Below, one piece after another: positions 15,829 through 64,000 of a stretch of DNA of 64,000 bases. Numbering within the stretch: position 1 is the first letter of the stretch; every line of letters begins with the position of its first letter. A program made the position numbers and the translations under genes. Origin of the DNA: Agarophyton chilense (lineage: Eukaryota; Rhodophyta; Florideophyceae; Gracilariales; Gracilariaceae); assembly GCA_030374765.1 (NCBI GenBank), contig JARGXX010000068.1:2232001-2296000 (forward strand), written 5' to 3'. The notes beneath the pieces were generated by a model that worked only from the letters and a program-made list of their open reading frames with translations, had not been told where the DNA came from and made no database searches.

Positions 15829-16714
15829 TGTAGAGCAACGGCCAGTTAGGGGATACTTGAAGGTGCAACTCATAGAATGAGGATTGAACCCTCCGAGGGT
15901 TATGACTATTATCCCCTCTAAGGTGTGCTGAGGTGGCACTGTTTTCTGGTTAGAGTTCGCCTATGAAGTGACAATTCGGATGGCCCATGGTTGGATTGGC
16001 CCCGTGATACACGTGGCTTAATTTTGGCACCGATTTTCGGATATTTTTTAGAACGTTGGACTTTTGGGCCCTGACAGTGGGATCTCCACGTGTATGGCCC
16101 TGAGCAGGTGTGCACTACTGTAGAGTTTAGTTAGTGGGCCCTACTTAGGGAGATGAGATCTGACAGTCCGAAGCTCAAAGTAAATGGTAACCAAGGTTGG
16201 TCTTCGATACCTTTAGAGGTTCTTCGTCGCCATCGTTTCGGCCTTACAACCCGGAACGGGCTCTAGTTAGCAACGCCTGCGTAGGGACACGACTCCACTT
16301 GGAGAGCGCCCACGTTTGGGTTCCGTGCAACCACCCCCTTGGGACCGCTCAGACGACCTGCGTGCATGATACCCCGTGGGGGTTCTGCTTACTTGTTGCG
16401 TGCTTTTTGTGTTTCCTTTCGAGGACAGGTTTTCGCCCCTTTTCTGGTTCTCGGGTCTAGTGCCTGTTAGTGCCCGACCCTCGCCCCGTTTTTCCTCTTC
16501 GCCGGATTTTCCCCCATTCTTTGGGATACCTATACCCATTCCCGATCCAACGGTTTCTACCCCTCACCTCCGTCGGTACTGCCGGAATCCCCCGTGGGAG
16601 TTACACCCCACACTACGGGTGGAACGGAGGGCTCTGTCTCTGAGTCTGCCTCCCCCAGGGAGCAAGGCTTCGAACACCTTGAGAGCACTTCCCGTCGCCG
16701 GGTTTTGCTCCACA
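15829..16714 (+). repeat. 5' LTR of element 1 (886 bp)
   Basis: Aligns end to end with 26609-27522. It starts TGTAGAG directly against the piggyBac-like transposase and ends CCACA. It lacks 30 bp present in the right LTR; the missing piece lies between two copies of TTTCGCCCCT, as expected for a deletion between short direct repeats. Diagnostic bases in its middle match inverted fragment A (27588-28022) rather than its partner LTR. Confidence 0.93.
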
Positions 16715-16716
16715 AG

Positions 16717-16734: not shown

Positions 16735-16941
16735 TCCGTTCTCGGACTTTTGGGTTGGTCATCAACGTGTTGGAATATCTCTTGGAAGAGGAAGCACCGT
16801 CGTGAAGATTTGTTGTAGTGGTCTCCTTTGGAAAGGGTGGAATTGGTTTTTATTTTTGTTTTGTGTTACGTCATCCGTTCTCCGGGAATCTCGTGATCGA
16901 ATTTCATCGTTACCCCGAATCGTCGGTATCGTGTCTGCAGC

Positions 16942-18972
16942 ATGTCGCCGATTACCCGTGGTTCCAGGACTGGATCGAACCGTCAAGCGGATTCAGTGCC
17001 CCCGGCCCCGCCTAGGTCGAAGAGCTCAATTCCCGAAGGTCGGAACGATTCCGGTATCGATCCGGACACTCGGAGAGCACCCTCAGTGATTTTAGGTCCT
17101 CGAGAGGTTGTGGCTGTGGGCCCAGCTCCAGTGGTGGAGACCCCCTCAGCAGCACCCCGAAGTCGGGCCGACCCTGAATTACAGCGCCTGGAGACTCGAA
17201 TCGATATCGCCAACGCGGCTCACGTCGAGCTCCTTCAGGAGGTTACTACCCTTCGCCTCAAGGTGGAAGACGCCCCGGTGCGGGGAGTCGCCGATGACCT
17301 TCGTACCCTGAGGAGGGATGTGAACTCCCTTTTGGAAAGCTTTGGTACCCCTGGGGTCTTTATCCAGGAGTACCGGAGCCTCATGGAGGAACACCGCGTG
17401 CAAGCGGAACGCTTCCGAGCTCGGCTGGACACCCTCGAGGCCATTATCCGTATGGACGGAGACACAGAAGCCTCAAAGGATAAACCCGACGTTTCGGAAG
17501 ACGAAGAACACCGCTCCGCTAAACGGGACCGCCGCAAGTCCAAGAAGAGGGTTCAACTCCAAGAGGATTTATCGGATTTCGATTCCAATCGCTCGTCATC
17601 GAGTTCGTCCTCCGAATCTTCGGATAGTGAAGATGGACGCCGGTCATCCCGGGCGACTCGGTCGAAGGCTACTTACACCTCTCAAGGGGCAATCCGTACC
17701 CGGAAGAAGGGTAGGAAACACCTTGGATTAAGGGAGCTGAAGCCGACGAATCCTCTCTATCGGAAGCTGCTATCGTACCGCTATTACCGGTTGGATAACC
17801 CTTCGGAAGATCGAACATCCCACGGAACGGGTAAGGTCAAGGACTACATCAAAAGGCTGAGCATCACCCCACAGAAGAGGGAGTTCACAGGAACAGACCC
17901 AATTCTGGTGCTCGATTTCCTTGCGAGGTTCGTCCAGGAGGCTGACATCTTCGGTATGAGTGAAGCGCAAGCGTATCTTGCATTACCCTATTTCTTAAAG
18001 GGGATAGCTGAAGACCAGTTCAACTCTAACCGTGGATCATCCCGAGCCTCGGAAGGGGGAGTCACGTGCTGGCCCGAAGCGGTGCAGTACCTCTTGAGGT
18101 CATACGCTACTGGAAATGCGATTCAGGAAGCAATCCTTGCATTAAGGGATACGCGGCAGAAGCCGATGGAAACCGAAACGGTGTATTCAACTCGCTTGAA
18201 TAAAGCGTTTCACCGATGCGGGAATGTATTCCCCGCCTACGAGAGATGCACCATGTTTGTGGATGGTTTGGACCCCTCAATAAGGGCATTGGTTGCCCGA
18301 CATCGGGAAGAGAAGCGCAAGCTGACCTACTTGGAACTGGTTCAGTACGCCCAGGCTGAGGGGGATACTCTCCGTGCCCGGCAGAACCGAAAGAGTCGGC
18401 CGACACGTGCACACCTCGCCGATGGAGGTAACTCGTCTTTGTGACTTGCAGGAGGCCCTGCGCCTGTGGGGGTCAATGATAACATTCACTTCATGGGAAG
18501 TAACCCCGAATCTATGGGTACTTCTGAGTTGCCGTCGACATCCACTCCGACTACGGATGAAGACCCTGCGCTCTATACCCAAGGACGGAGGGTGCCAGCC
18601 GCATCGCTACCTTTTGCGAATACGGCTGCTCGGTTCTCTCGCCCCGGATGGAGGGATACAGCACCACGTCGCGTGGATTCACGTCCACAACCGAACCCAG
18701 CAGAGCTGATTTGCTATTTGTGTTACCTCCGTGGTCACAAAGCACCAGACTGCACATTTCCCCTGCGGGAGGGTTCACGAATTATCGCTCAGTACGAGGC
18801 TCTGACCCCTGAGGAGAAAGCTCGATTCCCGAGGAGGTCCTATGAGGAACAAAGGATACTCCGAGCTCACCTTGCTGACAGGGATACAGAACTTGTACCC
18901 GCGAACGGGGAACAACCGGTCCCCTTCGAGGCAGCTGCACCGAACTCGGTGGGGTCCGCTTCGAAAAACTAA
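16942..18972 (+). pseudogene. gag: gag of element 1: coiled coil, capsid, CCHC knuckle
   Basis: ATG at 16942. The frame runs to 18972 with a single TGA at 18442-18444. Residues about 75-175 look like a coiled coil (LETRIDIANAAHVELLQEV). A Ser/Asp/Glu-rich acidic segment follows (about 180-235), then a retrotransposon-gag capsid-like helical domain (about 260-480, with FLKGIAEDQF and YSTRLNKAFH). Past the stop, the same frame carries the zinc knuckle CYLCYLRGHKAPDC, a perfect CX2CX4HX4C, at 18712-18753. The knuckle shows that the downstream 169 codons belong to gag. The gag stop (18970-18972) and the pol frame are in different phases, so pol would need a frameshift or re-initiation. Confidence 0.88.
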
Positions 18973-18974
18973 AC

Positions 18975-21900
18975 TTGGGAGTCTCCCCTGCGGGAGGGGC
19001 GTCTTCTAAGCCGGAGTTGAAGACGCCCGAGGCGCTCCAGCTTCGCTCCCCAGCTGTGACTGTCATTTCAAGGAGAACAGCTGACACCGACGTTAACTCG
19101 GGATACTTTAGTGTCCTCCGTCGCCCGTGGATACGGTCCCGTAATCTCCGTATTCCGGATCGAGTTATGGTAATGGCCAAGCGGAATTATAAAGTATTCG
19201 CCGACTTCGGCCTGTCCAACCAGTTTATGGTTCGTCAAATATCTGTCCTGGATACAGGAGCCGCTCCTAACTTAATTCATGTTGAATTGTTACCCCCGCT
19301 GCTCCGGGTTCAAGTTCGTACCGGTCCACGTTTGGATATCGCCGATGCGAACAACAACCCGCTACGGACACTGGGAACAATTTCCCTCATGGCGAGGTTA
19401 GGCTCCTATCTCGTTCAGCTAGAGTTTATTGTATGCAAGTCACTTGCAGCACCAGTCATACTGGGTTGTGACTTTTGCGACCGCTTCGTGGAAGCCATCC
19501 GTCCTCGGAATAGAACTGTGGAACTCGAAGACGGGTCTACGATCCCAATCGTTCGTAAATCCTTACAGGGAGCAGCGCGAACACGCGTTCCTCTCCCTGT
19601 CGCGCAGGAATCTGTGAAGAAGGACCCGGTGTCTACACGGGTAAAGGTTGCGAAGTCAGTGGCTATCCCGCCAGAAACCGAGGTTTGGGTCACAGTCGTT
19701 ACCAAGCAAATTGGTGTGCATGTGGTACAACCGAACCCGTCTCTGTATACGCGGCGTCAACTCGCCCTTGTGAATGGGGTTGTCTCCGTGGAACCGGATA
19801 AACCTTTCAAGGTTTTGGTAGCCAACTTTGGAAAGACAACGAAGCATTTGGTCAAACACCAGATCCTGGGTTCTGTTCTTCCACACCCGCATGCAGTCGT
19901 ACCTACAAAGATCTCTATCGCAGAGGTCCTTGGTGTGGCGGACCCTAAGGAGGGGGAGGACACTGCCGAAATCGCGGAAGACGGTGAGCATACGACTGCA
20001 GCTCCACACGCTGAACACTTTAAACGTCAGAAGGTTACGGCCCCTATCACAGGAGCAGACCAGACGGATCCTGTTCAGGAATTGGAGAAATGGGATCTCA
20101 ACCATGTACCCGCATCTCATCGGGAGAAGCTGAGTCACATGCTTCGTGAATTTACCCCCATGTGGGATGGTTCCCTTGGAACTATTGGGATTACAGAACA
20201 CCGCATCGACTTGTTACCGAACACTCGGCCTATTGCCCAACACCCTTACAGGGCTGGACCGAAAGCTCGGGAAGAGGAGAAATCTCAGGTGGAGAAGATG
20301 CTTAAAGCGGGCGTAATTGAACCTGCCCTGTCCGCTTGGGCCTCACCAGTGGTGTTAGTTCCGAAACCGGATGGATCGTGGCGTTTCTGCATCGATTACA
20401 GACGCCTGAACGAGGTAACCTTTAAGGATGTGTACCCGATCCCTCGGATGGACGAATACATCCACTCCCTTGGGAGCGCTACTGTTTTCTCTACCCTCGA
20501 CGCCTATTCGGGCTACTGGCAAGACCCTATTAGGGAGGAAGATCGAGACAAAACGGCTTTCGTGTGTCATCAAGGACTTTTCCGATTCCGGAGGATGCCT
20601 TTTGGGTTGACAAATGCCCCCGCAACGTTTCAACGGGCGATAGACATTCTGTTGGCTCCCTTCAAGTGGAGGACGTGTCTAGTGTATTTAGACGACATTA
20701 TTGTCTTCTCCAACAACCTGGATGACCACCTCGAACACGTCAGGGACGTAATGAAGATACTCCGCGACGCGGGAATCACCTTGAAACTCAAGAAGTGCGA
20801 GTTTTTCACCGATTCGGTTAAGTATCTGGGTCATATCATCCGTCCCGGACAGCTTTCAATCGATGAAGTACGAGTGAAATCCTTGAAAGAAGCAGAACAC
20901 CCGAAAACTCAAACCGATTTGCGATCTTTCTTAGGTCTGTGTAACGTGTATCGCCGATTCGTCCCGAACTTTGCGGATATTGCCACCCCCCTCAACAGGC
21001 TCCTGACGAAGGGACAACCAGTTGAACTGGAACCTTTTGGCGACGCGGAAGCGTCTGCCTTCACGGCACTGGTGAATGCCGTAACATCACCGCCAATCTT
21101 GGCTCTACCCAATCCTGGGCTCCCTTACGAAGTGGACACCGATGCTAGTGCAAACCAAGTAGGGTGTGCACTGTTCCAATCCTCTGAGGATGGTGAACGT
21201 CACCCTATTGGTTACTGGTCACGTTCCCTGAATGTCCATGAAAGGAACTACTCGGTCTCCGAGAAAGAATGTTTAGCCGTTGTGTGGGCCTTAGCTACAC
21301 TTCGCCCCTATCTGATGGGTACTCGTTTCAAAGTCCATATGGACCACGCATGCTTGCGTTGGCTCCTGGAGATCTCCGAACCCTCGGGCCGCCTTATGCG
21401 CTGGCGTCTCCGACTGTCGGAATTCGACTTTGAGATCCTGTAAAAGAAAGGGAAGCTGAACACTCAGGCTGATGCACTATCCCGCTTGGGAACCACAGCG
21501 GAAACGGAACCCTACGAGGACGATGACATCCCATGCTTCATGGTATCGGACCTCGAGGGAGGAGCTCAACCGCTGACGGATGATGTTTGTGACGATATAC
21601 TCGTCCACGAGAGTCTGGATTCGCCGACCGGCTCTTTTATACCTATCTCTCCAGAGGAGATGATACGCGAGCAACAGCTCGACCCATTCTGTACACGGAT
21701 TCGGGCTCGCCTCAACGGAGGATTTCAGTTACCTTTCGAGGACGACGATCAGGGTTACCTAATCAGGACCGTTGGACCTCGCCCGAGGATAGTGGTGCCG
21801 CACACCCTACAACAGAGGGTATTACACCTCACTCACTATTTGAAGGTTGGCGCCCACCCCGGGGGAAGAAAACTGTACCTCACGTTGAGAAGGGACTTTT

Positions 21901-23213
21901 ACTGGCCGGCAATGGCATTCGATTTTTACGCCGTCAGACGGGCCTGCGCCAATTGCCCCAAGAATGACGTCAAACTTCGGAAGCACTCTAAGAAGTTGAC
22001 GCTGTTCCCGGCACGGGCTCCACTCGAATTCGTGGCCATAGAAATCCTAGGGGAGTTTATCAGAACGCCCCGAGGTCATCGGTATCTGCTTGTCATTTCT
22101 GACAGATTCTCTAAGCTAACGAGAACTGTGCCGCTGAAGCGGATCACCGCCGCTACCGTCGCGCAAGCGTTCGTGACCCATTGGGTGTTCGTATATGGAC
22201 CGCCGGTGCAGTTGTTATCCGATAACGGAGGGCAATTCGCATCAAAGTTCTTTCAGGATGTATGTCGAATCCTTGATGTAAGGAATTTATTTGTTACTAT
22301 GTATCACCCTCAGGGGAATGGCCAGGTGGAGAGGTTTAACCGCACGATACTCAACGCTTTGAGATAGTATGTTGCGGATCATCCCAAAAGTTGGGACTTG
22401 TACACAGACGCTATCACGTATGCATACAACACCCAGGTACATCGGGTTACATCGTTATCCCCATTCGAACTGGTACTGTCGAGGACACCGCCGCCGGTCG
22501 CCATTGAGGCTCAACCGACGCTGTCAACGTACCCGTCACCGGGATTGTACCGAGAAGCCTGGAAGGAGTGGCTTACGAAGATGCTGCCGATAGCCCGGAA
22601 AGCAATGGACAAAGCTCAACGCGCCTCCAAGAAGGACTTTGACAATCGGGTTCGCAAACCTCTACCTCAGGTGGAGCCCGACGACTTCGTCTTCCTTCGA
22701 AAGGAATACTACAATCCTGAAAAGGAACGTAGGCACAAGCTTTCGCCAATTGTGGACGGACCCTATCGTGTGGTTTCTGTAGACCCGGACACGGTGGTAT
22801 TGGATATCGCTAACCGCCACGAACGGATCTCCAGGGACCGCATCACACGAGCGCCCAACCCAAATGTGGAAGTGCTGTCGGCACCAACGCCCTCCACAGG
22901 GGATGATTCAACGGAAGTTAACCCGTCAGGCGGAGATTCGAACACCCGCCCCGTTATACTTCCGCACCCGGAACGTGGTTTAACCGACCTACCGGAAACT
23001 TCGGATACTCCCGAACCGGGGCCCGCTCCCTCAAGGGCCCAGTCAACGAACTCTTACAGAGTTACTCCCCCACCGGAGGTAATCAAGCCTCCTGGCTCTC
23101 CGCCTAAGGAGGGGGAGGAGGACTTAGTTCCTTCGCAGGACGATGTTTCGGCGTCAGCCAGTCGCCCTAACAGGGAATCTAGTTCTCACAGTGAGACGGC
23201 GAGCCCGACCTAG
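18975..23213 (+). pseudogene. pol: pol of element 1: protease, RT, RNase H, integrase
   Basis: One frame from 18975 to 23213, broken only by TAA at 21441-21443 and TAG at 22365-22367. Aspartic protease: VLDTGAAPNL at residues 91-100. Reverse transcriptase: VPKPDGSWRFCIDYRRLN near 460, GLTNAPATFQR, and the YLDD catalytic box at about 571-574. RNase H: VDTDAS at about 720, HPIGYWSRSLN, YSVSEKECLAVVWAL. The first stop sits in the RNase H-integrase connection before KKGKLNTQADALSR. Integrase: HLTHY..GAH and CANC zinc-binding residues, then the core with LLSDNGGQF and NGQVERFNR. The first catalytic Asp is replaced by Glu (VAIEILGEF). After the second stop come the integrase C-terminal part and a Pro/Ser-rich tail. 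No ATG starts the frame: it opens right after the gag stop. Confidence 0.92.
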
Positions 23214-24075
23214 CCGGCGACAGAGAAGTCACAACCCCAGCGTATGGGTAGCGACATCACCGCCGACCCAGCCGAGCACGACGTCAGAAAAGATGACTAA
23301 ACCCCGCCTAGGGAGAGTCGTGTGGAGAACTCCGCACCCGGAACGCCTAGAGACCCGACGATCACCCGCCGCCGCGGAAGAGACACTGAGGTGTCGCACA
23401 CTCAAACCCCGCTTTCTCGGGAACGAGCTGTGTCAGCGGACCCGCACGGGGAAGATCTCGATGACGAGGTTGACCAAATTTGGCTCTCCGTTATGGAATG
23501 GGAATAGGAACTCCTATGGAGACACTGAAACCCTCAGGAATGGGAAAGAAATGAGTGAGACCCGTCGGGGACAGCTCAGGAGAGTGCTAGCGCATGCCTA
23601 AAGCGCCACCTCATATCCGCTTGCGGAGTGGCAACCGGCGCCCGCGCATCTATGTGGCCCACGTCGAATGGCACCGAGCCAATCAAAAGGCTCTGACGAC
23701 CAACCGTCGCACGGCGCGTTGCACCAGAGCACCCTTCGTCCCCGTAGCTCGGGTTGCCGTTGAAGTCTTACCCCCCTGAGACTGGAGACGCTACCGCGTC
23801 GCGGTTTCTCAACCGTCACGGAATCTAAGAACACCGTTGTTATCGGGAAGATCTCAGCTTTAAGAAGAACCCAAAACTGGGCCGTTTTGTCACCGTAGAC
23901 GGAAGTTACAACGTAGCCCACAGGCCACTCGGCGCCGTTTGGACGAAGTGCTGAGACCCGCTCGCAACACGGAAAAGAACCCACCGGGGTGTGTCTGGAC
24001 CCTACGTTGACACTCTCAAGGGAACTAGAGCCTTCCAAGATGGAAAAGAAGCCCGAACAGGGAAAAGTGTACCCG
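23214..24075 (+). other. Linker between integrase tail and chromodomain, eroded
   Basis: The pol frame continues past the TAG at 23211 as Pro/Arg/Glu-rich, low-complexity coding-like sequence to about 23507, with further stops at 23297 and 23505. Other frames are open in pieces after that (23594-23779). It contains one copy of a 29-bp direct repeat (23614-23642). It probably encoded the spacer between integrase and chromodomain in the parent element. Confidence 0.5.
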
Positions 24076-24237
24076 CAGGAATTCGTTATCGATCGCATCG
24101 TGCGTCACATCTACACCCCCCGAGGGAGAAGTTCGCTACCAAGTCCGATGGTACGGATTCTCGCCTGATGAGGATACAGTGGAACCCATTGAGCACCTTC
24201 CGAGGTCTAAGGTTTTATCCTATCACCGACGCGCTCG
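24076..24237 (+). pseudogene. Chromodomain of element 1
   Basis: The piece starting at 24076 reads QEFVIDRIVRHI. After a +1 shift around 24118-24122 the next frame reads EGEVRYQVRWYGFSPDEDT followed by VEPIEHLPRSKVLSYHRR. This is the chromodomain pattern: aromatic E-[YF]-x-V-[ED]-x-I, then the Y-x-V-[KR]-W-x-G-[FY] strand, then D-x-T-x-E-P and the closing helix. The W of the usual TWEP is a V here. Chromodomains at the integrase C-terminus define chromoviruses and guide insertion to modified histones. Confidence 0.78.
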
Positions 24238-24670
24238 GGTAACCTTGCCTCCAAATCTGGATCGTGCCCAAGTCGGGTAAGCCACCACGGGAAGTGGTGT
24301 GGATGCGACCTCGAAGTGAGAAAGATGTTGGACCTCTGAAGAGGAATTGAGGAGAGTATCCCGAAGAACACGTATTGAGAGGGAATGTCTACTGGCCCTC
24401 GGCCTAGCGCCGTTAACCGGGGAACACAACACCGGTTATCGGGACAGTATATGATGAAAAAAGGAAAAGAAGACCCACGAAGTGGAGAAGAAGATTAAGA
24501 AGAAGATTGGACCCTAGGAAGGGAAGAAGATGAAGAAGATCCTAAGAAGGAATGAAGAAGATGAAGTAGAAGTTAAGATCCTAGGAAGGAAGAAGAAAAG
24601 AAGTTATGCAAATATCAGAAGTTTACTATTGTCGCCAAGCTATGGACTCCACAATTGCCCGAAGGCGGAA
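24238..24670. other. Convergent gap between sense and antisense genes, purine-rich repeat
   Basis: The sense frame carrying the chromodomain stops at 24278-24280. From about 24450 to 24612 the plus strand is almost all purine, with degenerate repeats built from GAAGAAGAT and ATCCTAGGAAGG units. It lies exactly between the two convergent reading frames and could serve as a terminator or 3' processing region for one or both. No ORF of note. Confidence 0.55.
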
Positions 24671-26527
24671 CTACGGAAAGCCCGAGGAGGGACCCGCCCC
24701 ACCGTTGGGATTCTGACCCTGATGGTACGCCGAGGCGAAAGCCAACATCTTGCTCACATCCGTCATACCCGGGGGAATCGGAATGCCCGCGTTCACGAGG
24801 CCTTGTCGCACACTATCCGCTTGCGGAGTGGCAACCGGCGCCTGCGCAAGGGTGTTCACACCCCACGCAGGGGGAGCAGATGAACCGCCGCCGGATGCAT
24901 TGGCCGCCGCAGCTGAGGTCGTTCCCACTGGTTGGAAGGGTGCAGATGGCTCCACAGGGAGTACTCCACTAGGAGCTGGCACTTCGTTATCCAACGCTGG
25001 ATCGTCCAGGTCTACTGGAGGCTCGTACTCGTAATCGTCGGTATAAATGAACCCCGTCGGGTGTCCCACCGGCATCGGTCGAGGCGAGTCAATCAGCGCC
25101 CGTGCTTGCGCCGCGCTGATGCGAACCCCTTCGAAGGGATTGTAATAGACCCAGTTACTGGAGCCCGGATCGTACCGGCCAGGAGACTTGTCTTGCGCGG
25201 ATCCTTCCCCTGCGGGCTGATTTGCCACTGGAACTCGATCCCATTGGGTGTTGTCGATCACGTTCAAGATTTGATACAGGTCCTGCACGTTGCTGGCCGA
25301 ACCCAACGCTGGGACAAGGTCGATCTGACGCATGGTGGTGCGTAGCATCGGAGGAATATACCAGATACGGAAATGGTCATGAGCATCCCAGAGGAGGTGC
25401 GCCGCTACGCGGGCTGCCCACTCGGCTGCAACGAGGGCCCAGTATCCCGAGTTCGGGTCGTGCATCAAACGAGACCCGATATAGTAGATACATGGGGGCA
25501 GTTCAGCAAAGCACCCTCGGGGGACCTCGACCTTACTCCACCAAGCTGGAAGGGGCACGAATCGCCCAACCTTCGCCGTGTTACGGATACGCTCCAGTTC
25601 CACGTGAGGATACGGGACAAGGAACCCGAAACGGGAGCGCGAGCGGCGCTCGAAGCGCACGCGTCGATCGAACCCATACTGGGTAAACTGCCGCTGAAGG
25701 TACCTGAATTCAGCCCGAAGGATGGGACGACTCCATTGGAGCATATCTTCTCGGAGAGGAAAACCCGGTCCGCGGAACTCGGCTTCGGGAAAGGCTGCCA
25801 GGTTATCCCCTTAGGAGTCCTCACCGTACGTGCAGTAATAGGCGACATCGAACCCGTACTCCGGGGGAACCAGATGGTCAAAGCGTGACCTCTCCAATCG
25901 CTGGTAGGCCAGAGCCGCCATCGCTGCGCGCGCCTTGTCCAGGGACTCCCCGCGACCGCGGTATAAATACTGAGGCTCTATGGCTACCCGCGCCCTCCAA
26001 TCGGGAGAACGTACAACCTCGACAGGTAGGTCACCCGGCAATAAGCCATCCTCCACGTAGGAGTCGATGAGCTCATCGTCGCGAACCGCTGTCGGATGGA
26101 ACCACGGAGCGCGGGAATATATCACCGGATCGGTAAGGGGACTCCACCTTCGAAAGGATTCGTTTGAGATCCAACCTCTGGAGTTTGCTACCAAGGGCAT
26201 CGCATGAGCGGAGTTCCACGCCACCGCGTTAATGTCCAAATCCTCCTGAGGATGTCGGTTGCGCGCCGAGGCGGAAGGTTCGGTACCTGACGGAGCCGCA
26301 TCCAAACCGGAGAAATATCCACCCTGCTGGGGAGCTTCGTTTTCCGCCGGCGCGGAGTCCGATGGCCCCGAGAGTGGGTTGAGGACGTATGGGTTCATTC
26401 CCTTGAGAGGGCTGGTTGAGACTGCTGTTGCGAGAAGTTGCTTATCGCCGAAAGTCGGAGGAGTAGAAGAAAGTTGTACCGATGTGCCGGTTTTGTGGCT
26501 ATCTTCAGAAGTGGTGAAGGACCCCAT
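24671..26527 (-). CDS. Antisense ORF of chromovirus element 1 (one in-frame stop)
   Basis: Minus-strand frame of about 618 codons between chromodomain and 3' LTR, from ATG at 26527 to TAG at 24671, interrupted once by TAA at 25811-25813. The frame is open upstream to about 26593 without another ATG. A TATATATA stretch lies 13-23 bp before the ATG, and the LTR edge is 82 bp upstream, so an antisense promoter in or next to the 3' LTR would drive it. No signal peptide, membrane segment or domain I know. The N-terminal 120 residues are Ser/Pro-rich. A middle region has RAPWFHP (about 26113), GFLVPYPHVELERIR (25627) and ELPPCIYYIGS. The C-terminal part has NVIDNTQW (25264), SPGRYDPG (25186) and a Pro/Ala/Gly-rich tail. 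The same blocks recur in order at 59028-60685 in element 2, in the same antisense position. Function unknown. Confidence 0.8.
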
Positions 26528-26591
26528 TGGGAGAGAAGTATATATAGTGACCGGAAAGCGAGACACCCGCGGCTCGGAATGTTCTTCCTCG

Positions 26592-26608
26592 TCTTAAGGA
26601 GGGGGAGA
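26592..26608 (+). promoter_or_regulatory. Polypurine tract of element 1
   Basis: AAGGAGGGGGAGA lies directly before the TG of the right LTR, the place where plus-strand DNA synthesis is primed in LTR elements. Confidence 0.85.
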
Positions 26609-27522
26609 TGTAGAGCAACGCCCAGTTAGGGGATACTTGAAGATGCAACTCATAGAATGAGGATTGAACCCTCCGAGGGTTATGACTATGATCCCCTCTA
26701 AGGTGTGCTGAGGTGGCACTGTTTTCTGGTTAGAGTTCGCCTATGAAGTGACAATTCGGATGGCCCATGGTTGGATTGGTCCCGTGATACACGTGGCTTA
26801 ATTTTGGCACCGATTTTCGGATATTTGTAGAACGTTGGACTTTTGGGCCCTGATAGTTGGATCTCCACGTGTATGGCCCTGAGCAGGTGTGCACTACTGT
26901 AGAGTTTAGTTAGTGGGCCCTACTTAGGGAGGCGAGATCTGACAGTCCGAGCTCAGAGTAAATGACAACCAAGGTTGGTCTTCGATACCTTTAGAGGTTC
27001 TTCGTCGCCTTCGTTTCGGCCTTACAACCCGGGACGGGCTCTGGTTAGCAACGCCTGCGTAGGGACACGACTCCACTTGGAGAGTGCCTACGTTTGGGTT
27101 CCGTGCAACCACCCCCTTGGGACCGCTCAGACGACCTGCGTGCACGATACCCCGTGGGAGTTCTGCTTACTTGTTGCGTGCTTTTTGTGTTTCCTTTCGA
27201 GGACAGGTTTTCGCCCCTGTATTGGGTTTCTTTTGTTGTTTCGCCCCTTTTCTGGTTCTCGGGTCCAGTGCCTGTTAGTGCCCGACCCTCGCCCCGTTTT
27301 TCCTCTTCGCCGGATTTTCCCCCATTCTTTGGGATACCTATACCCATTCCCGATCCAACGGTTTCTACCCCTCACCTCCGTCGGTACTGCCGGAATCCCC
27401 CGTGGGAGTTACACCCCACACTACGGGTGGAACGGAGGGCTCTGTCTCTGAGTCTGCCTTCCCCAGGGAGCAAGGCTTCGAACACCTTGAGAGCACTTCC
27501 CGTCGCCGGGTTTTGCTCCACA
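26609..27522 (+). repeat. 3' LTR of element 1 (914 bp)
   Basis: Begins TGTAGAGC and ends CCACA. It is collinear with the left LTR apart from roughly twenty substitutions, two single-base indels and 30 extra bases near 27220-27250. Its middle section shares diagnostic bases with inverted fragment B (28023-28473), not with the left LTR. It should hold the promoter for the antisense ORF if that is transcribed. Confidence 0.93.
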
Positions 27523-27587
27523 AAGCGCATATTCTTTTGAATAGGTTATAACAAGTCTTTACTGTTTGGAGGTCAAAACAGGAAAAC
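27523..27587. other. Short unique spacer
   Basis: 65 bp between the right LTR of element 1 and the first inverted LTR fragment. It does not repeat the sequence to the left of element 1. Confidence 0.6.
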
Positions 27588-28022
27588 AGAGCCCGTTCCG
27601 GGTTGTAAGGCCGAAACGATGGCGACGAAGAACCTCTAAAGGTATCGAAGACCAACCTTGGTTACCATTTACTTTGAGCTTCGGACTGTCAGATCTCATC
27701 TCCCTAAGTAGGGCCCACTAACTAAACTCTACAGTAGTGCACACCTGCTCAGGGCCATACACGTGGAGATCCCACTGCCAGGGCCCAAAAATCCAACGTT
27801 CTAACAAATATCCGAAAATCGGTGCCAAAATTAAGCCACGTGTATCACGGGGCCAATCCAACCATGGGCCCTCCGAATTTTCCCTTATAAGCGAAATATA
27901 ACCGGAAAACAGTGCCACCTCAGCACACCTTAGAGGGGATCATAGTCATAACCCTCGGAGGGTTCAATCCTCATTCTATGAGTTGCATCTTCAAGTATCC
28001 CCTAACTGGGCGTTGCTCTACA
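27588..28022 (-). repeat. Inverted truncated LTR, fragment A
   Basis: The reverse complement matches about the first 435 bp of the element-1 LTR and ends exactly at the LTR start (TACA at 28019-28022). In the segment next to CTACTTAGGGA it has the left-LTR bases (GATGAG, GAAGCTCAAAG, GGTAACC). It also shares with fragment B a block (TTATATTTCGC... side) that differs from both LTRs of element 1, so it derives from a sister lineage. Confidence 0.9.
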
Positions 28023-28473
28023 CGCAGGCGTTGCTAACCAGAGCCCGTCCCGGGTTGTAAGGCCGAAACGATGGCGACGAAGAACCTCTAAAGGTATCGA
28101 AGACCAACCTTGGTTGTCATTTACTCTGAGCTCGGACTGTCAGATCTCGCCTCCCTAAGTAGGGCCCACTAACTAAACTCTACAGTAGTGCACACCTGCT
28201 CAGGGCCATACACGTGGAGATCCCACTGCCAGGGCCCAAAAATCCAACGTTCTAACAAATATCCGAAAATCGGTGCCAAAATTAAGCCACGTGTATCACG
28301 GGGCCAATCCAACCATGGGCCATCCGCATTTTCCCTTATAGGCGAAATATAACCGGAAAACAGTGCCACCTCAGCACACCTTAGAGGGGATCATAATCAT
28401 AACCCTTGGAGGGTTCAATCCTCATTCTTTGAGTTGCATCTTCAAGTATCCCTTGACTGGGCGTTGCTCTACA
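28023..28473 (-). repeat. Inverted truncated LTR, fragment B
   Basis: A second LTR 5' portion (about 450 bp) directly behind fragment A, in the same inverted orientation, ending at the LTR start (TACA at 28470-28473). It has the right-LTR bases (GGCGAG, GAGCTCAGAG, GACAACC). It reaches about 16 bp further into the LTR than fragment A. No internal element sequence lies between A and B. Confidence 0.9.
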
Positions 28474-30916: not shown

Positions 30917-31148
30917 TGGAGGGGGGGGGCGGGGGGAAGGAAGAGGAGGTAGGTAGGAGGTAAGAAAGGGGTGGTTGAGGGCAACGTTAGGGAGGTGTGG
31001 GGCGGCGATGGCGGGACACGGGGAGGCGGAGATGCGGTGCGGGTAGTGGGGCGTGTGGGTGGGGATGGATCACGGAGGCGGCATGAAGGGGAGGGGGGGG
31101 GGGGGGGTGGGGGAGCGACGGCGACAAGCTGCGCGCAGCGGCTATTTT
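30917..31148. promoter_or_regulatory. G-tract-rich intergenic region upstream of the bZIP gene
   Basis: Contains runs of 9 and 14 or more G on the plus strand (around 30921-30936 and 31089-31105) and many shorter G runs, hence long pyrimidine tracts on the bZIP coding strand. It acts as bZIP promoter and 5' leader by position, and as 3' flank of the HIG1 gene. The G runs could form quadruplexes. Confidence 0.5.
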
Positions 31149-31559
31149 TTATTGGGCGCTGTTTTGGGGGCGAACCACGGAGGCGCCCAGCACGACGAGC
31201 GTGGCGGCCTGCGCCACCACGCGCGCGCGCATCATCGTCTGCGACAGACGCGTGTTTCCGGCGCGAAAGGCCAGCAGACCGATGCCCAGCACGGCGGCAG
31301 TGGTGAGAGCGCCGGCGGGCACCAGCGGATTCTTGCGTAACAGCGACAGGTCGCGCGCCGGCGGAAGATACGCCTCAAACGACGGCGTGGCGTCATCGTC
31401 GAACTGCTCATCGCTCTCGGGCGGGCGCGATAGAATGATGCGCGTTGCGCGCTCCACGCCTCCGACGCGCGTCCCGCTGTCGCTCATGCTCTCTCCGTCG
31501 CTCTTGCTATTGCTCTTGCTCTCGCTCATGCTCTCGCTGTTGCTGTTGCTGTTGCTCAT
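31149..31559 (-). CDS. HIG1-domain mitochondrial protein (Rcf1-like)
   Basis: 136 aa from the ATG at 31559. The frame is open further upstream but only with non-ATG codons. The C-terminal half carries the HIG1_N pattern: RKNPLVPAGALTTAAVLGIG, then a Gly-Asn step, LSQTMMRARVVAQAATL, that is two hydrophobic segments around an invariant-looking RARVxAQ motif. Family members sit in the inner mitochondrial membrane and help assemble or stabilise cytochrome c oxidase and respiratory supercomplexes. The N-terminus is a Ser/Asn/Glu-Met repeat (MSNSNSNSES, MSESKSNSK) of low complexity. Divergent to the glycosyltransferase gene at 31738. Confidence 0.85.
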   Translation of the reverse strand: MSNSNSNSESMSESKSNSKSDGESMSDSGTRVGGVERATRIILSRPPESDEQFDDDATPSFEAYLPPARDLSLLRKNPLVPAGALTTAAVLGIGLLAFRAGNTRLSQTMMRARVVAQAATLVVLGASVVRPQNSAQ

Positions 31560-31737
31560 CGCGGCGGGCAGCGCAAGTGTACGGCTGAGGGCAAAGCTCG
31601 CTCGCGCTGTGCAACGCGCCAACTTCTCGGCGTGCCACGTGGCCGCGCGCGCTGACGCACCGTTTGTTCGGTGTTATAGCGCAGCGCTGCTGTGGCAGCT
31701 CGACGCGACGCGACGCGACGACTCGGAGCGGTGCGCG
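31560..31737. promoter_or_regulatory. Shared divergent promoter region
   Basis: 178 bp separate the HIG1 ATG (minus) from the glycosyltransferase ATG (plus), so both promoters lie here. No TATA box is seen. GC-rich, with a CGACG run at about 31701-31720. Confidence 0.55.
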
Positions 31738-33048
31738 ATGAAGACGCGCGTAAAGACGATCAAGACGACGGCGACTTTGTCGACGACGACGGCGACGGCG
31801 GGAAGGGCGCGAAGGTTGGATCGACGCGGACGCGCCGCTCTGTTGCTGCTGTTTTGTACCGCGCTGCTGCTGCTGTTGCTGCTGGCGGCGGTGGCACGCT
31901 CCTTTTCTGCGCTGCGCACGCGTGGCGCGCGTGTGCGCATCCAGCGAGCGGCTGAGCATGCCGCACTGTCGCTGCCACGTTCTTCGCGACGTGTGGTGCT
32001 TCTCACCGCCGTCAACTTTGCGTTTCGACATTACGTGCTCAACCTCGTGTGCTCTCTCGTGCAAGCCGATTTGGCGCCGAGTAATTTGCTTGTCTTTTCC
32101 TTGGATGACAACGCTCACGCCTACGTCACCGCCGCCGGACTCACTAGCGTCAGGCTTGACACCGACGCTGCCCACGAGCAGGAGGCTGAGTTTGGCACCC
32201 AACAGTTCAACCTCTTGTCCAAGAAGAAGCTGGCCGCCGTCAAGGCCGTCTTGGACGCTGGCCTGGATGTCTTGTTCACGGATGCCGATGTGGTGTGGTG
32301 TCGCCGTGCCTTTCCGCACGTCGCGCGTCTGGTGGATAACGCCCCCGCCGATCTGCTAGTGCAGACTGCGTGGCCGCGCAGCTTGCTCAACTCAGGCTTC
32401 TACTACGTCAGGTCCAATCACGCTACACGCGCCCTCTTCAACGCCTTCCTTACCTTCCCGCACGACTCGGAGAATGACCAGGTCATCTTCAACCGCGTCT
32501 TGTGTAACCCCAAGTTCGGCGGCTCGGTGCTTGACAACCTCAGCTCCGCTGACTCTCACTCAAACCACACCCCCAACGTCAAACGTGGTCCTACACCATT
32601 GGGATGTCGCTGGCGTCAGGCCACCGCCCATCTTTTCTCGCCGCTTCTGTTCCCCACCGGCGGTGAGGTGATTCATGGCGAGAAGATCTTTCATCTGCCG
32701 AGGAACCGCATCATGCACATGTGCGACGCCGGCTCTCCGTTAGTGATGCATAACAACTGCATTTTGAGCAACAAAAAGATGGCCAGGTTTGTTGTCAAGG
32801 GTATTTGGTACGTGAATCCGGCCTTTATGGATGGTGACGACGACCCACATGCCGACCACACTGCCTTCGAGAACGACGTAGTCCCGGGTGAGAATAGCGA
32901 TGCTCACCTCGACTTGACGGAGCCGCAAGACTTGCAGCGCGTCTGTGGGCCGCCCGTCCCACCTACGCAACAGATGAGGCGCCGCTGCGGTCCGAGCAAA
33001 TGCGGCCCCGATGGCGATGTTCATCGTTTTCCTCATATGCACGTCTGA
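31738..33048 (+). CDS. Golgi nucleotide-sugar glycosyltransferase (Nucleotid_trans / GT77-like)
   Basis: 436 aa from ATG at 31738. I chose this over the longer open frame (from 31201) because the extra part overlaps the HIG1 gene and would put the anchor in mid-protein. Basic N-terminus, then a signal anchor at about 33-53 (Leu-rich), giving a type II Golgi protein. Catalytic domain: LLTAVNF and LNLVCSL at its start, the DxD metal and nucleotide-sugar site FTDADVVW at D182-D184, SLLNSGFYYVRS, then a conserved-looking ENDQVIFN. These are PF03407 features, found in plant and algal wall glycosyltransferases. The acidic, His-rich C-terminal tail is unusual. The sugar transferred cannot be told. 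No intron. Confidence 0.82.
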   Translation: MKTRVKTIKTTATLSTTTATAGRARRLDRRGRAALLLLFCTALLLLLLLAAVARSFSALRTRGARVRIQRAAEHAALSLPRSSRRVVLLTAVNFAFRHYVLNLVCSLVQADLAPSNLLVFSLDDNAHAYVTAAGLTSVRLDTDAAHEQEAEFGTQQFNLLSKKKLAAVKAVLDAGLDVLFTDADVVWCRRAFPHVARLVDNAPADLLVQTAWPRSLLNSGFYYVRSNHATRALFNAFLTFPHDSENDQVIFNRVLCNPKFGGSVLDNLSSADSHSNHTPNVKRGPTPLGCRWRQATAHLFSPLLFPTGGEVIHGEKIFHLPRNRIMHMCDAGSPLVMHNNCILSNKKMARFVVKGIWYVNPAFMDGDDDPHADHTAFENDVVPGENSDAHLDLTEPQDLQRVCGPPVPPTQQMRRRCGPSKCGPDGDVHRFPHMHV

Positions 33049-59027: not shown

Positions 59028-60685
59028 ATGAGCAACCTTCCGTCTTACGTGGTCAATCCACCGACGTCCTATGATGATCTAGACAACCCTCCGTTTCAGA
59101 AGACTTCTGCGCCGCCTAGAGGTTCCGCTCCACTCTCTCGAACTGTCCCTTTTCCGTAATCGGCTTCCAGTCCTGGTCCGGCATACCTTTCCTCCAGAGC
59201 AGCTTTTCTGCAACCTGCGTCCTCCTCCGTACAGAGGCTCCCACATTACGCGGACTTCGTCGGCCGAGACTCCCTGCAGCACTCCGCATTATACGCGCGA
59301 GCACCTTGGTTTTTCCCTGCGGCTCTCCACGACGAAGCTCTGATGAATCAGTATGTGGTCGCCGGTTGCCTTCTTGATGGTATCCCATGGCATGCGTTGT
59401 TTAAAACAGATTGGTTGAGACATTGCGCCGTCTCAAACAATGCGATCAGTCGCTTCGGAAACGAGAGCCTGCTCAAGGCGCGCGAATGATTCACCCGCCC
59501 GGTGTACCAGCGATTACGCCGCATTATCGGCTGGGTGCCTCTCAATGAGGATTGGCAATTCGATACCTGTTGCACCAGAACAAATGGCGAGGCCTACTCG
59601 TATGTCGAGAACCTAGCGGCTTTGGATGTCAAAAGTTGGCGCGGTGTTCGTGGAGTATCCAACGGGGTCCTCTGTTCCGACAGTCCTCAATTACGCGCAA
59701 AAATTCCGCTATCTCCGCAAACGGGATAATCTGTATTGGGAACTCCCCCGCTGCGAACACCGTACCAGATCTTGACTGGGATACTTGGTTCCATACCAGA
59801 TGCTCGAAGTGGACCGAATTCGGTATAACTCGCACGTCGGGCGCTACGTGCCGATTCCTCTATACTGACTGACATGAGATCGAGAGTTCTCGTGGCTGTC
59901 CTGTGGAGCTTCCTCCTTCAATCACCTACGTAGGTTCCCTACTCGCGAATGATCCGTTTTCCGGGTATCGGGTAGTCGTCTACAGTTAATTCATCGCAAA
60001 GATGGTCGTGTTCATCCTTTGGGATGTATACGACACATATCTTTTGTTATATATGAGCTCGATTGCTCGACCATTTGCGAGAGAACTCGATCTGTCGCTC
60101 GTCTTGGGCTCACGTGGCAATCATGAAGAGTTTCCGCGCCTGATGAATGTCATCGACCAGATTGACTGGACCTTTGTTCCTTCTAAACAGCAGGCTGGAG
60201 GACGTCCTCGTCGCGACTATTCACCCGGAAGAACCGGTCCCGGTGGTGACTTTGTCTGGTACGACCCCTGGACTAACCAGCGTATCGACGGCGATCACAT
60301 CAAAGTTCTGCGGGAAACTCCGCCAGCAATGCCTCCGACCCAGCCGACTGGTTACATACACGAGCCAACTGCTCAGAATGCCGACGCACTCGTTGACGAG
60401 ATGCAAATATTCGATTACGCTGAAGAGCCGGACGAGGTCATCCTCGAGGATCCCGCTTTGGGTGAGAACGACGGCATAGAGCCAGTGGTCCCTGCAGCGA
60501 TGCAGAACGCTGTACCTGAGCCTTTTCGACCCTCAGCGGCTTCCCACGATGCTGAGCTTGGCAATCTGAGACAGTTCCTCGAAGACGCTGGGATTCCTCC
60601 CCACCTTGTTCAAGGAAATCGACAGCAGATGCTGAATCTCTTGCGCTCCTCAATGGGTATCAATCCGGATAACCCGAACCCCTAA
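59028..60685 (+). pseudogene. Antisense ORF of chromovirus element 2, homologous to that of element 1
   Basis: Starts ATG at 59028 and runs opposite to the pol of element 2. It is broken by stops (59157, 59488) and shifts of frame (about 59640 and 59890, with further stops between), then open from 60002 to 60685. Homology to the element-1 antisense protein runs in order: YARAPWFFPAALHDE (59292) with YSRAPWFHPTAVRDD; GYLVPYQMLEVDRIR (59779) with GFLVPYPHVELERIR; a VELPPSI..YVGS block (about 59910) with AELPPCIYYIGS; NVIDQIDW (60146) with NVIDNTQW; SPGRTGPGG with SPGRYDPGS; PTGYI with PTGFI; and DAGIPP near the C-terminus with NAGIPIPP. The last 227 codons remain open. Function unknown. Confidence 0.82.
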
Positions 60686-60894
60686 CTTTCTTGCCCGTGG
60701 GCACTATCACAAACCGACTAGCGGTAGTCTTGAGATAACCAAAATAAAACACTTTGATCTCCACTTCTTGTAGACCTTCACTTCATTCTTCTTCCTCCTG
60801 GAGTTACTTCATACTTCTGTAGGCGTCAGACTGGATCAGGCTCTCCTGACACAACCAAACCGAAGAGAGCGTCATCAATAGTGTCTGGGACATC
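60686..60894. other. Convergent gap between antisense ORF and chromodomain
   Basis: About 210 bp between the ends of the convergent frames, with a TTCTTCTTCC pyrimidine run near 60785. It is the counterpart of the 430-bp purine-rich gap in element 1. Confidence 0.5.
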
Positions 60895-61062
60895 CAGTTT
60901 AGCACGTCGGCAGTACGCGAGCACGCGTGATCGTGGTAGATTGCGTATGGGCTCCCATGTATCGTCTTCGGGTTGATACCCATACCAACGCACTTTAAAC
61001 AGTAAACTGTTGTCCTTGGCCTACCATCCATGATCTAGAATGTGTTCGATGACGTATTCCAT
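60895..61062 (-). pseudogene. Chromodomain of element 2
   Basis: The minus-strand frame reads MEYVIEHILDHGW, a TAG at 61023-61021, then [18 protein letters not shown] followed by [18 protein letters not shown]. This is a canonical chromodomain, with the YxVE start, KVRWYGY strand, TWEP and a closing helix. It shows that element 2, like element 1, is a chromovirus. One in-frame stop. Confidence 0.85.
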
Positions 61063-61204
61063 CTCCTCAGTTGCGGAATTCTCAGTCGGGGTGACACTCC
61101 TGTCAACAGGTTCCGTAGCGTTAGCTATAGCGTTCGGAACCGTTTCATCACCATCTGTTGTCTCATCCACATCCGGGGCTCTCAAAGCCAGTCGTCTGGT
61201 TTCC

Positions 61205-62107
61205 CTATATCTTTCCGGTCTGCCCGGTGCTTCCAACTTCCTTCTCGGATTTTCCGAACCTCGCGGCGAAAACGCGACTTAACTTGCCATTGTACCCCTT
61301 AGGCTTGCCCCGTTGGGCTTCTTCTCTTCCGGATTTAAGGTGTCCGGATGTTCTGGGGGTAGCCCCAAATGCTCGGTATCCGCGTGCAACGAATTGCTTG
61401 CCATTATCTGTGAGCAGAGTATCCGGTGGTCCGTAGTAATAAACGCAATGGTGGATAAACGCTCGTGCTATCACGGAAGCAGTAATCCGTTTCAGCAGAA
61501 TAGTCTTAACCAGCTTGGAGAAGCGGTCAGTTATTACCAAGAGTTTTCTGTTCCCCCGCTTCGAGCGGATCAATTCCCCAAGTATGTCAATACTGACATA
61601 CTGTAGAGGTGCGATTGCTGGGAACAGCTACAGTCGCTTCTTCTTTTTTCAGAGCTTCACTGTATTCTTCGCGCACGTTACGCACATCTTAGCTGTCGCA
61701 TGACAGTCCTTTTCCAAAGTTGGCCAATAAAAGTCCCTTCTGAGGGTTAGATACAGCTTCGTACCTCCTGGATGACCAGACATTTGCGAATAATGTGCCA
61801 AATTCAGTACTCTGCTCTTGAGGGCGTGTGGTATCATGATTTGCTCATTCGATACAACAGTTCGAACAACGATTCCTCGATCTTCGAGACGAAAAGGCAA
61901 CACCTCCCCCCCGTTAAGACGAGAGCGGATAGCCGCGCAGAAGGCATCTATGACTTGTTCACTTAATAGCTCTTCAAGAGAGATTCGTTCGAGTTGATCT
62001 CTTGGATCAGTGTCCGTAGTCTGGAATACCAGTAATTCTTTTTGATAATCCTCCTCTTCTAGATCTTCTAGTTCTTCTTCTTTCGTTCTCAAATTCTCCG
62101 CTACCAA
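61205..62107 (-). pseudogene. Integrase of element 2, internally deleted
   Basis: 62107-61649 reads the zinc-binding N-terminus: LNLAHYSQMSGHPGG and CVTCAKN (HHCC), with YLTLRRDFYWP between. 61573-61205 continues with LLVITDRFSKLVKT and LLTDNGKQF (second catalytic Asp), but then jumps to unrelated Arg/Gly-rich sequence. The block with the catalytic Glu (GxxERxNR) is missing, so a deletion has removed the end of the core and the C-terminal domain. A stop and frame change also lie around 61574-61648. Confidence 0.8.
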
Positions 62108-63512
62108 ACATGGTATCTCATCATCGATTTACAATTGGGTTTCTCCCAAGGTTTCAAGTCGCAATAACGCCTCGGCATGTACATTTGAAGATCCCTTCTT
62201 GTAGTTGATTGTAAACTCAAATTCCGAAAGGCGCAGACGCCATCGCATTAAGCGTCCCTATGGATCGGTAATCGACATGAGCCATCTGAAGCATGAATGA
62301 TCGGTATTGCCCGTAAAGTGAGCACCCTATAGGTGAGGTCTGAGGGTTGTGAGAGCCCAAACCATAGCAAGGCATTCCTTTTCTGACACAGAGTAGTTCT
62401 TTTCTGCCTTGTGCAGTGTTCTAGACCAGTATCCAATAGGATGTCGTATGCCGTCTTCGTGCGTTTGAAAAAGGGCACACCCTATCTGATAATCGGTAGC
62501 GTCCGTATCGACGGAGTAAAGAAGATCCGTTTTCGGAAGAGATAACACAGGAACTGTGGTCAGCACGTGTTTTAGCTTTGCGATAGCTTCCGTTTCGGCT
62601 TCTCCGAATTCCTTCAATTGAACGGGTTGTCCCTTCTTCAATAAAGCATTAAGGGGTGCAGCGATATGCGAGTAGCGCGACACAAATCGTCTGTAGACGT
62701 TACAAAGTCCGAGAAAAGATCTCAATTGCGTCTGCGTTCGCGGAGGTTTGAACTCACGAATCGCAGCGTTCCGCACTTCTTCCATTTCCAGTTTCCCTGG
62801 CTTTATCCTGTGTCCCAGGTATTTCCTTGGTCCGTGAACCATTCACACTTCTTGATCTCTAATGTAATTCCAGCTTGCTGTAACTCCTCGAGGATTCCCT
62901 CAACATTTTCGAAATGGTCCTCCATATTCTTCCTGAAAATGATGATGTCATCCAAGTAAACAAAACATGTTTTCCACTTATACTGTGAAATATTATATCC
63001 ATAGCACGCGGAAAAGTCGCAGGGGCGTTGGTCAAACCAAATGGCATTTGCTTAAAGCAATACAGGCCGGCGTGACACGCAAATGTAGTTTTATCTTGGT
63101 CTTCTGGGGCGAATGGTATCTGCCAGTGTCCCCAATTTGCGTCAAGCGTAGTAAAAACATTGGCTTCTCCAAGACTATCGACGCATTCATCCATACGCGG
63201 TAATGGGTACGTATCCCTCACAGTTAATGCATTCAGTTTTTTGTAGTCAACGCAAAAGCGTAAAGAACTATCTCCCTTGAGAAATAGGACCACTGGGGAC
63301 GCCAAAGCTGACTGAGCTGGCTTAATAATTCCCTTCTCCAGCATGGAGTCCACGTGTTCTTTCTCGATCTGACGAGTTGGCAGGCCTGCCCAATACGGTA
63401 AGAGAGCGATGGGTTGTGTACCCCGTACAACGTCAATATGATGTTCCATAGCCGCGATCTTGCCAATGTATCCACTCCACATATGTAAAAACTTCAGCAT
63501 CAATCTGCGCAA
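62108..63512 (-). pseudogene. Reverse transcriptase and RNase H of element 2
   Basis: 63512-62859: FCVDYKKLNALTVRDTYPLPRMD, CFKQMPFGLTNAPATF. At the YLDD box the frame changes (a different frame carries YLDDIIIF) and continues to 62842-62327: YLGHRIKPG, SFLGLCNVYRRF, VDTDATDYQIGCALF and HPIGYWSRTLHKAEKNYSVSEKECLAMVW. The connection with YKKGSSN (about 62215) leads into integrase. Clear Ty3/gypsy RT and RNase H, collinear with element 1 but strongly diverged. Confidence 0.9.
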
Positions 63513-63521
63513 TCTTCCTTT

Positions 63522-64000
63522 TTACTTCTCAGGAACGTGTTCCATCTTCACGCCCTCGAGGGCTTCTTCCATCTCTTCTTCAGAGACATTCTCTTCCTTC
63601 ATGTTCTTCATGTTCTCGACCACTTCTGTCACTGTCGATTTCTGCTCGCCTGTGGGCGTTACTCCTAAGACGTCTGCCTTTATTATGTGTGCCGGTATCA
63701 CAACTGAAGGGTGTGGTAGCGCCATGCCCAAGAGTTGATGCTTGTGTAAGCGACGCTCTTCAGAGCCAACATTGCTCACCAATATCCTGAAAGGGATCTT
63801 TGGGCTCACCTGTGCAATTCCGTTAGCGAATAGCAATTCACTAGTGTGCTAAAGTGCCGCGTTCGGCTGAATAACGATAAGTCCGGGCTTTTCTGTAACG
63901 ACTGATACCCATGTTTGAATTTTTGGTGGTATCACCGTTAGTTTACACACCCGAATCTTCGGAGATGTTCCGCGCAGTGGGGCTTCGTATTCCAATGACG
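63522..64000 (-). pseudogene. Protease-RT linker of element 2, cut by the window end
   Basis: 63836-63522 reads IPFRILVSNVGSEERRLHKHQ and LGMALPHPSVVIPAHI, matching the linker after the protease of element 1 (PFKVLVANFG and LGSVLPHPHAVVP). Upstream, beyond a TAG at about 63849, the frame continues with IPPKIQTWVSVVT and IVIQPN to the window edge. The protease active site itself lies outside the window. Confidence 0.82.

Follow-up and report, generated by a model that had tools for sequence, protein, structure and literature searches.

A 64,000-nucleotide stretch of the genome of the red alga Agarophyton chilense (contig JARGXX010000068.1), hereafter the window, contains two Ty3/gypsy elements with a chromodomain, referred to as element 1 and element 2. 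Between the chromodomain and the 3′ long terminal repeat (LTR), each carries a gene or the remnant of a gene on the strand opposite to pol. We read it as an accessory gene of such elements that is selected for its protein and would regulate the element in trans, and we give this reading as a whole a probability of about 0.62. Its parts differ in strength. That the antisense frame is a real, selected gene is close to certain, and that its protein serves the element is likely; that this protein is a nuclear or nucleic-acid regulator is a tentative proposal by analogy. The position and orientation of the gene, its conservation across families, its constraint at codon level and its database relatives are matters of observation.

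Element 1 spans window positions 15829-27523. Its whole antisense frame (24671-26527, minus strand) has 618 codons with a single internal stop, a TAA at 25811-25813, so that translation reproduced the frame of about 618 codons with one stop described in an initial annotation of the window. For element 2, that annotation had proposed a homologous frame in the same antisense position. The homology and the position hold, but no single open frame exists: the homologue is composed of three pieces in different frames (59139-59699, 59701-59859 and 59879-60661), with internal stops. Element 2 is a minus-strand element, which puts the homologue on the plus strand. Tblastn of the window with the antisense proteins of families A and C, which are described below, found both loci, with E values of 1e-54 (family A) and 2e-120 (family C) at the element 2 locus. 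These matches show that the likeness is not due to chance. The blocks RAPWF, LVPY..E..RIR, ELPP.I.Y.GS, NVID...W, SPGR..PG and PTG[YF]I, as annotated, are present in both. The frames had also been placed 47-82 bp inside the LTR edge, which is right for element 1 (82 bp) but not for element 2, where the distance is about 177 bp rather than 47, with the LTR edge set from the sequence (TG... after a purine run).

The genome searched comprises 80 Mb in 135 contigs, and at least three families of elements (A, B, and C) carry the antisense gene in it, element 1 being a member of family A and element 2 of family B. In family A, at least 114 copies were scored out of 1623 candidates, with 94-100% identity over the C-terminal 357 residues; by hand count, 77 of the 114 have no stop in these residues. 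Family B has at least about 50 matches with an identity of 72% or more, also counted by hand, some of which are pieces of one copy. At least 73 full-length copies of family C were scored out of 1803 candidates, and they are 88-92% identical, the query copy aside. Some more diverged copies with several stops are also among the matches listed.

In all families, the antisense gene is opposite to pol or the chromodomain in every copy where either was located. Twenty family A copies were fetched. The opposite strand has the chromodomain in all 20, the reverse transcriptase (RT) in all 20 (only a 168-bp remnant in two) and the integrase in 18 (remnants of 63-213 bp in three), and the window copy agrees in each respect. 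By coordinates, an integrase is within 8 kb of 58 of the 114 family A copies among the matches listed, and all 58 pairs are convergent. Family C has the same geometry throughout, with an integrase among the matches listed near 38 of 73 and 46 of 90 copies. The chromodomain is on the other strand at 12 of 12 family B loci, which include the window’s own and two others that differ at only 2 bases. Forty copies were picked via chromodomain and spacer DNA, and at least 19 of them have the gene at the expected offset among the matches listed. Hence, further copies beside the chromodomain or pol, on which the initial annotation had let its proposal depend, exist in families A, B, and C, always on the opposite strand where located.

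Pfam matches in element 1 and in copy L023 demonstrate the chromovirus-type order of RT, RNase H and integrase followed by the chromodomain, and tblastn gave the same order in the 15 undeleted fetched family A copies. The chromodomain was also recognised in a family B member, L013 (Pfam Chromo, 5.4e-8), and by tblastn in family C (E 2e-18). The clade name chromovirus is provisional here, because brown-algal gypsy elements with a chromodomain fall outside the chromovirus clade (PMC12477816).

We then inspected the selection acting on the antisense frame, using the window copy and the 20 fetched copies of family A, which differ by 2.7% on average; L022 is at the same place as L003. The alignment of all 21 copies to the gene of L003 (1854 bp) is free of gaps, with 1849 bp covered in L035. 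Relative to the reference L023, the antisense gene has 0 indel events in 20 rows, compared with 66 events in the LTR (910 bp) and 59 in the spacer (403 bp). The 20 fetched copies had been chosen by hand from candidates ranked by the score of their antisense protein, and no stop was listed for 19 of them. Intactness alone was dropped as proof of function because the ranking was by the antisense gene itself. The contrast between shared and private differences is free of this bias, as it is drawn within the same copies. Differences common to at least two copies comprise 23 nonsynonymous and 30 synonymous changes, with 31 of the 53 at third positions and a nonsynonymous to synonymous rate ratio (ω, or dN/dS) of 0.32, whereas the private differences comprise 227 and 107, respectively, with an ω of 0.89. 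Private differences thus look neutral, and shared ones constrained (Fisher p 0.001 for shared versus private, and p 4e-5 for shared versus neutral). For pol, counted in 19 of the 21 rows, the shared ω is 0.53 and the private ω is 1.02 (p 0.016); L022 and L034 were left out, which align badly because most of pol is missing. Pseudo-frames of the LTR have a shared ω of 0.92-1.97.

The between-family comparison is independent of how the family A copies were picked. Codon positions 1, 2 and 3 differ by 0.50, 0.45 and 0.73 between families A and C, and by 0.35, 0.30 and 0.62 between B and C. Between families, third positions differ most, then first, then second, and synonymous sites are saturated or nearly so. 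One B copy against one C copy gave a dN of 0.43 and a dS of 3.0. Together with the shared ω, these values rule out the dN/dS near 1 that the initial annotation had considered. It had also considered descent of both loci from one very recent insertion, which is excluded by the saturation and by the low protein identity. The antisense protein is 34% identical between A and B, 33% between A and C, and 49% between B and C; the corresponding pol pieces are 45-63%, 52-62%, and 51-67% identical. The antisense gene and pol therefore agree on the family relationships. The antisense gene is under purifying selection at the protein level.

A by-product would be a chance or shadow frame opposite constrained sense sequence, such as a 3′ untranslated region, an RNA signal or a sense frame. 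The region is necessarily within the sense genomic RNA, so some sense constraint is possible, and a low shared ratio (0.38) is also seen for the sense frame whose wobble position coincides with that of the antisense frame. That frame, however, contains 438 stops in the 21 copies; the five frames other than the antisense frame contain 198-438, and the antisense frame itself 2. Furthermore, the antisense protein is similar across three families with saturated synonymous sites, and in database proteins. With the codon pattern strongly opposed to it, we consider a by-product barely credible.

Several points weigh against a protein-selected gene with a regulatory function. The score-ranked and mostly stop-free picks bias both intactness and the lack of indels upward. 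The only ground for dismissing the wobble-sharing sense frame, with its ratio of 0.38, is its many stops. In family C, seven copies gave an overall dN/dS of 0.69 for the antisense frame and 0.80-1.05 for the five remaining frames, and their shared differences (12 nonsynonymous and 8 synonymous) are too few to inform. L048, the one copy read among the remaining 21 spacer-picked copies, has the gene with frameshifts. The regulatory role is drawn from analogy with the proteins of the plant antisense additional open reading frames between pol and the 3′ LTR (aORF-3R), and transcription of the red-algal gene is a prediction.

The database searches returned 21 relatives, one by a single-sequence search (P0001, 48%), 17 by a profile search, and three by a second profile. 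Nine of the 17 are labelled Agarophyton chilense and one Gracilariopsis chorda. The latter, P0012 (BWQ96_08668), comes from a 145-kb contig and carries the annotation hypothetical protein. The contigs of P0010, P0011, P0014, and P0021 are 1.8-3.2 kb long and barely exceed the gene; they would show transcription if they are transcript assemblies. A maximum-likelihood tree of 19 proteins groups family A with P0001 (support 100/100) rather than with the other two families. Family B joins P0005 (96/97), and the A. chilense proteins P0002 and P0006 are the partners of family C (100/99). This grouping suggests that the antisense-gene families split before some species did, or that they moved between species; the tree fits both. 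No relative was found in phage records, nor in single-pattern scans of viral contigs and prokaryote genomes.

The annotation of P0012 as a hypothetical protein on a long contig would also suit a captured host gene, or a remnant of another element nested in reverse, that is kept as a passenger. Yet three families of chromodomain elements, whose pol relationships are congruent, have the gene at one and the same position, which means that any capture is old, and selection continued afterwards. We regard a passenger as improbable compared with a gene that serves its element.

The conservation of the antisense protein is concentrated at residues ~150-500, a core that includes invariant W, R, P and G. 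Conservation is low in both the N-terminal tail and residues 501-618, which are rich in small and polar residues, while a short C-terminal motif, LR.FL..AG.P, is present in most of 14 aligned members. On a simple hydropathy scale, the 19-residue peak is 0.93-1.54 in 11 of the 14 members and 1.63, 1.64 and 1.85 in the other three, and the most hydrophobic 19-residue stretch holds charged residues. The product is probably soluble, with a low-complexity N-terminal tail, a core of ~350 residues, a polar linker and the short C-terminal motif. As the initial annotation had stated, no domain is recognisable: searches of Pfam and NCBIfam, and phmmer and profile searches of PDB sequences, gave no relative above the cut-off. 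The matches below it are leads at most, namely E3_binding (E 0.029, P0002), Ish1 (E 0.092, C-terminal motif of P0005), and DUF3905 (E 0.098, the window’s own N-terminal piece); all others are above 0.2.

The main rival to a regulator is a structural or replication protein, that is, a second capsid-like protein, a chaperone or a packaging protein. The shared ratio of the antisense frame is as low as or below that of pol (0.32 and 0.53, a difference given without a significance test), and length and composition fit many roles. Nevertheless, hhalign found no profile similarity to the elements' gag-like frame (probability 0.1%), so that a relation between the two was rejected, and the lack of a Pfam or PDB relative above the cut-off also disfavors a structural protein. 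A separate antisense transcript would be an odd route to a particle protein. We thus judge a structural role unlikely, and a regulatory protein remains our preferred reading.

The N-terminus of P0001 (MNP) falls exactly on Met44 of element 1's long frame, which makes window 26398 the more likely true start. The other relatives aligned to the same start column, which is weaker evidence because the aligner tends to stack end residues. Measured from the LTR edge, the homologous starts are at ~210 bp in family A, ~177 bp in B and ~168 bp in C; for B and C, this edge was set from sequence and not from an LTR pair. The upstream ATG of the 43-codon extension is present in 21 of 21 family A copies; the extension itself, which P0001 lacks, is free of gaps in all 21, except for the first 5 bases of L035, which are outside its match. 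The TATA-like run before the antisense ATG reads CTATA[CT]A in all 21 copies and CTATA[CT]ATA in 19 of them.

We propose that the antisense gene is inherited together with pol and kept by protein selection while the element is active. Its mRNA would start at or just inside the 3′ LTR edge, the region suggested by the TATA-like run, and translation would start at Met44. By analogy, the soluble protein may regulate the element in trans at the level of transcription, chromatin or genomic RNA handling. Alternatively, the antisense RNA could be the useful product, through double-stranded RNA or interference with the sense RNA, with the protein being of little weight. Given the layout, any such mRNA would be complementary to ~1.9 kb of the genomic RNA, and this kind of role is discussed for plant elements (PMC7264820). 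However, pairing predicts neither the codon-position bias nor the shared ω of the antisense frame. We find it hard to favor an RNA product over a selected protein, although control by antisense RNA may operate alongside it.

Five of the 20 fetched family A copies lack part of pol. RT and integrase are missing from L022 and L034, which have an identical junction (18987 and 22996 in window equivalents) at two genome places. In L027 and L031, most of the integrase is gone, and they have a second common junction (21637 and 22997); L033 has a third one (21505 and ~22993). The three different deletions end at nearly one 3′ point, and two were each seen at two genome places. Template switching is suggested by short stretches of letters shared at two junctions; an origin by splicing was rejected, as no GT-AG borders were seen at the junctions. 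All five copies keep the chromodomain, and both the gag-like frame (691 codons from stop to stop) and the antisense frame (640-650 codons) are open in them. The same junctions at different sites suggest that these copies multiplied with pol supplied from elsewhere, or were duplicated otherwise. The presence of the antisense gene in them proves nothing, because they were chosen through it; the open gag frame was not a selection criterion.

The features of both elements are listed in Table 1. The LTR pair of element 1 is 97-99% alike in two aligned blocks. Its gag-like frame gave no gag match in a Pfam scan and is 51% identical to the family C counterpart over 317 aligned residues. No protease family is among the Pfam matches of its pol, and the protease is assumed by position only. 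The chromodomain of element 1 is frame-shifted, with two pieces joining near 24117-24121, and its tblastn match, obtained with a shifted-frame query, was used for position only. In family A, ~550 bp with stops separate the integrase and chromodomain frames (L023 5523-6073; window ~23214-24037), where an intron or a separate product is possible. Directly after the 3′ LTR of element 1, window 27588-28473 contains inverted LTR pieces, partly tandem-duplicated, 451-452 bp apart.

Table 1. Coordinates of the features of elements 1 and 2 in the window.
Feature	Position	Strand	Remark
5′ LTR, element 1 (TG...CA)	15829..16715	+	direct repeat with 26609-27523
Gag-like open frame, element 1	16897..18441	+	stop to stop; named by position
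RT-RNase H part of pol, element 1	18879..21440	+	Pfam RVT_1 1.9e-37, RT_RNaseH 1.3e-34
Integrase part of pol, element 1	21444..22364	+	Pfam Integrase_H2C2 2.6e-11, rve 2.8e-9
Chromodomain, element 1	24038..24281	+	homologous 80-residue frame of copy L023: Pfam Chromo 8.7e-9
Antisense gene, element 1, beginning at Met44 of the long frame (likely start)	24671..26398	-	stop codon at 25811-25813
43 in-frame codons extending the antisense frame 5′, from the upstream ATG	26399..26527	-	
TATA-like run, TATATATA in element 1, directly before the antisense ATG	26539..26546	-	putative promoter role
Purine run adjoining the 3′ LTR, element 1	26596..26608	+	polypurine tract by position
3′ LTR, element 1	26609..27523	+	direct repeat with 15829-16715
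Broken antisense-gene homologue, element 2 (family B)	59028..60685	+	
Chromodomain, element 2	60835..61065	-	99% match to L009 2346-2576, converted to window coordinates
Integrase and RT part of pol, element 2	61373..63998	-	tblastn with family A and C pol; continues towards the window end

Elsewhere in the window are three likely host genes, at 31087-33045 (plus strand; Nucleotid_trans, 5.7e-26), 33544-34782 (minus strand; Core-2/I-branching enzyme, 8.5e-25), and 38802-40139 (minus strand; FkbM methyltransferase, 2.5e-7). They are near each other and perhaps form a wall or glycan gene group. An RT fragment at 53977-54783 (plus strand) belongs to a different retroelement region (RVT_1 3.3e-6, below the curated cut-off). 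Two inverted repeats are 98% complementary, one of 245 nt (1-245 and 1148-1392) and one of 82 nt (43701-43782 and 44158-44239).

Among retroviral antisense proteins, HBZ has a bZIP domain. Pfam scans of members of the red-algal antisense protein gave no match to bZIP, nor was another domain found, and the comparison with HBZ is an analogy only. HBZ and APH-2 are antisense genes of human T-cell leukaemia viruses with an antisense promoter in the 3′ LTR (PMC7264820, PMC11963269). Athila and Bagy-2 have an env-like gene between pol and the 3′ LTR (PMC7264820), and in this they resemble the red-algal elements. The red-algal gene differs in being antisense in every copy located and, on a simple hydropathy scale, apparently in having no clear transmembrane stretch. 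The initial annotation had cited the plant Grande gene, a comparison that holds and to which the literature adds RIRE2, Retand, PvRetro13, and the antisense gene brtn of fungal Boty-like elements (PMC7264820). The latter, compared by description and not by sequence, is likewise an antisense extra gene in a gypsy element outside plants.

The closest likeness is to the aORF-3R class, which includes Grande gene23, RIRE2, Retand ORF4, and PvRetro13 (PMC7264820, PMC11963269). As described in these sources, aORF-3R genes are present in most copies, are conserved about as well as the other element proteins, and have no known function. Grande gene23 is transcribed from its own upstream promoter. The Grande protein is nuclear (PMC7264820). 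Place and orientation are the same in the red-algal elements. In contrast to these, which have a chromodomain, the Retand group is non-chromovirus. It is described only for Eudicotyledons and Liliopsida, and 97% of clusters have a TRP28 domain (PF04195) (PMC7264820, PMC11963269). None of the red-algal members scanned matches PF04195 (Transposase_28): hmmscan of 5, 16, and 10 members in overlapping sets, at E up to 5, 10, and 5, gave no match after very weak matches were filtered out. The reading that fits best is an accessory gene in antisense orientation, of the aORF-3R type known from plants, whose protein family is apparently unrelated. No report of antisense genes in red-algal LTR elements was found among the matches listed for the open-licence literature searched; apparently new, as far as searched, are the protein family, a red alga as host and the occurrence in elements with a chromodomain.

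Antisense genes of LTR elements are thus known from flowering plants, fungi, and some retroviruses, and their roles in retrotransposons are open. Red algae add an apparently unrelated protein at the same place, with clear protein-level selection, in several deeply split families within one small genome. For annotators this is a warning, as at least one relative, G. chorda BWQ96_08668, which may lie in an element, is annotated as a hypothetical protein. A bolder view, which we consider doubtful, is that an ancient antisense gene is a fixed design of red-algal chromodomain elements, with a fold unlike that of any described element protein, acting as their own nuclear regulator or anti-silencing factor and independent of plant TRP28, fungal brtn, and retroviral HBZ. 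If true, antisense accessory genes would be a repeated solution of LTR elements. Whether such genes arose repeatedly, and what they do, can now be tested.
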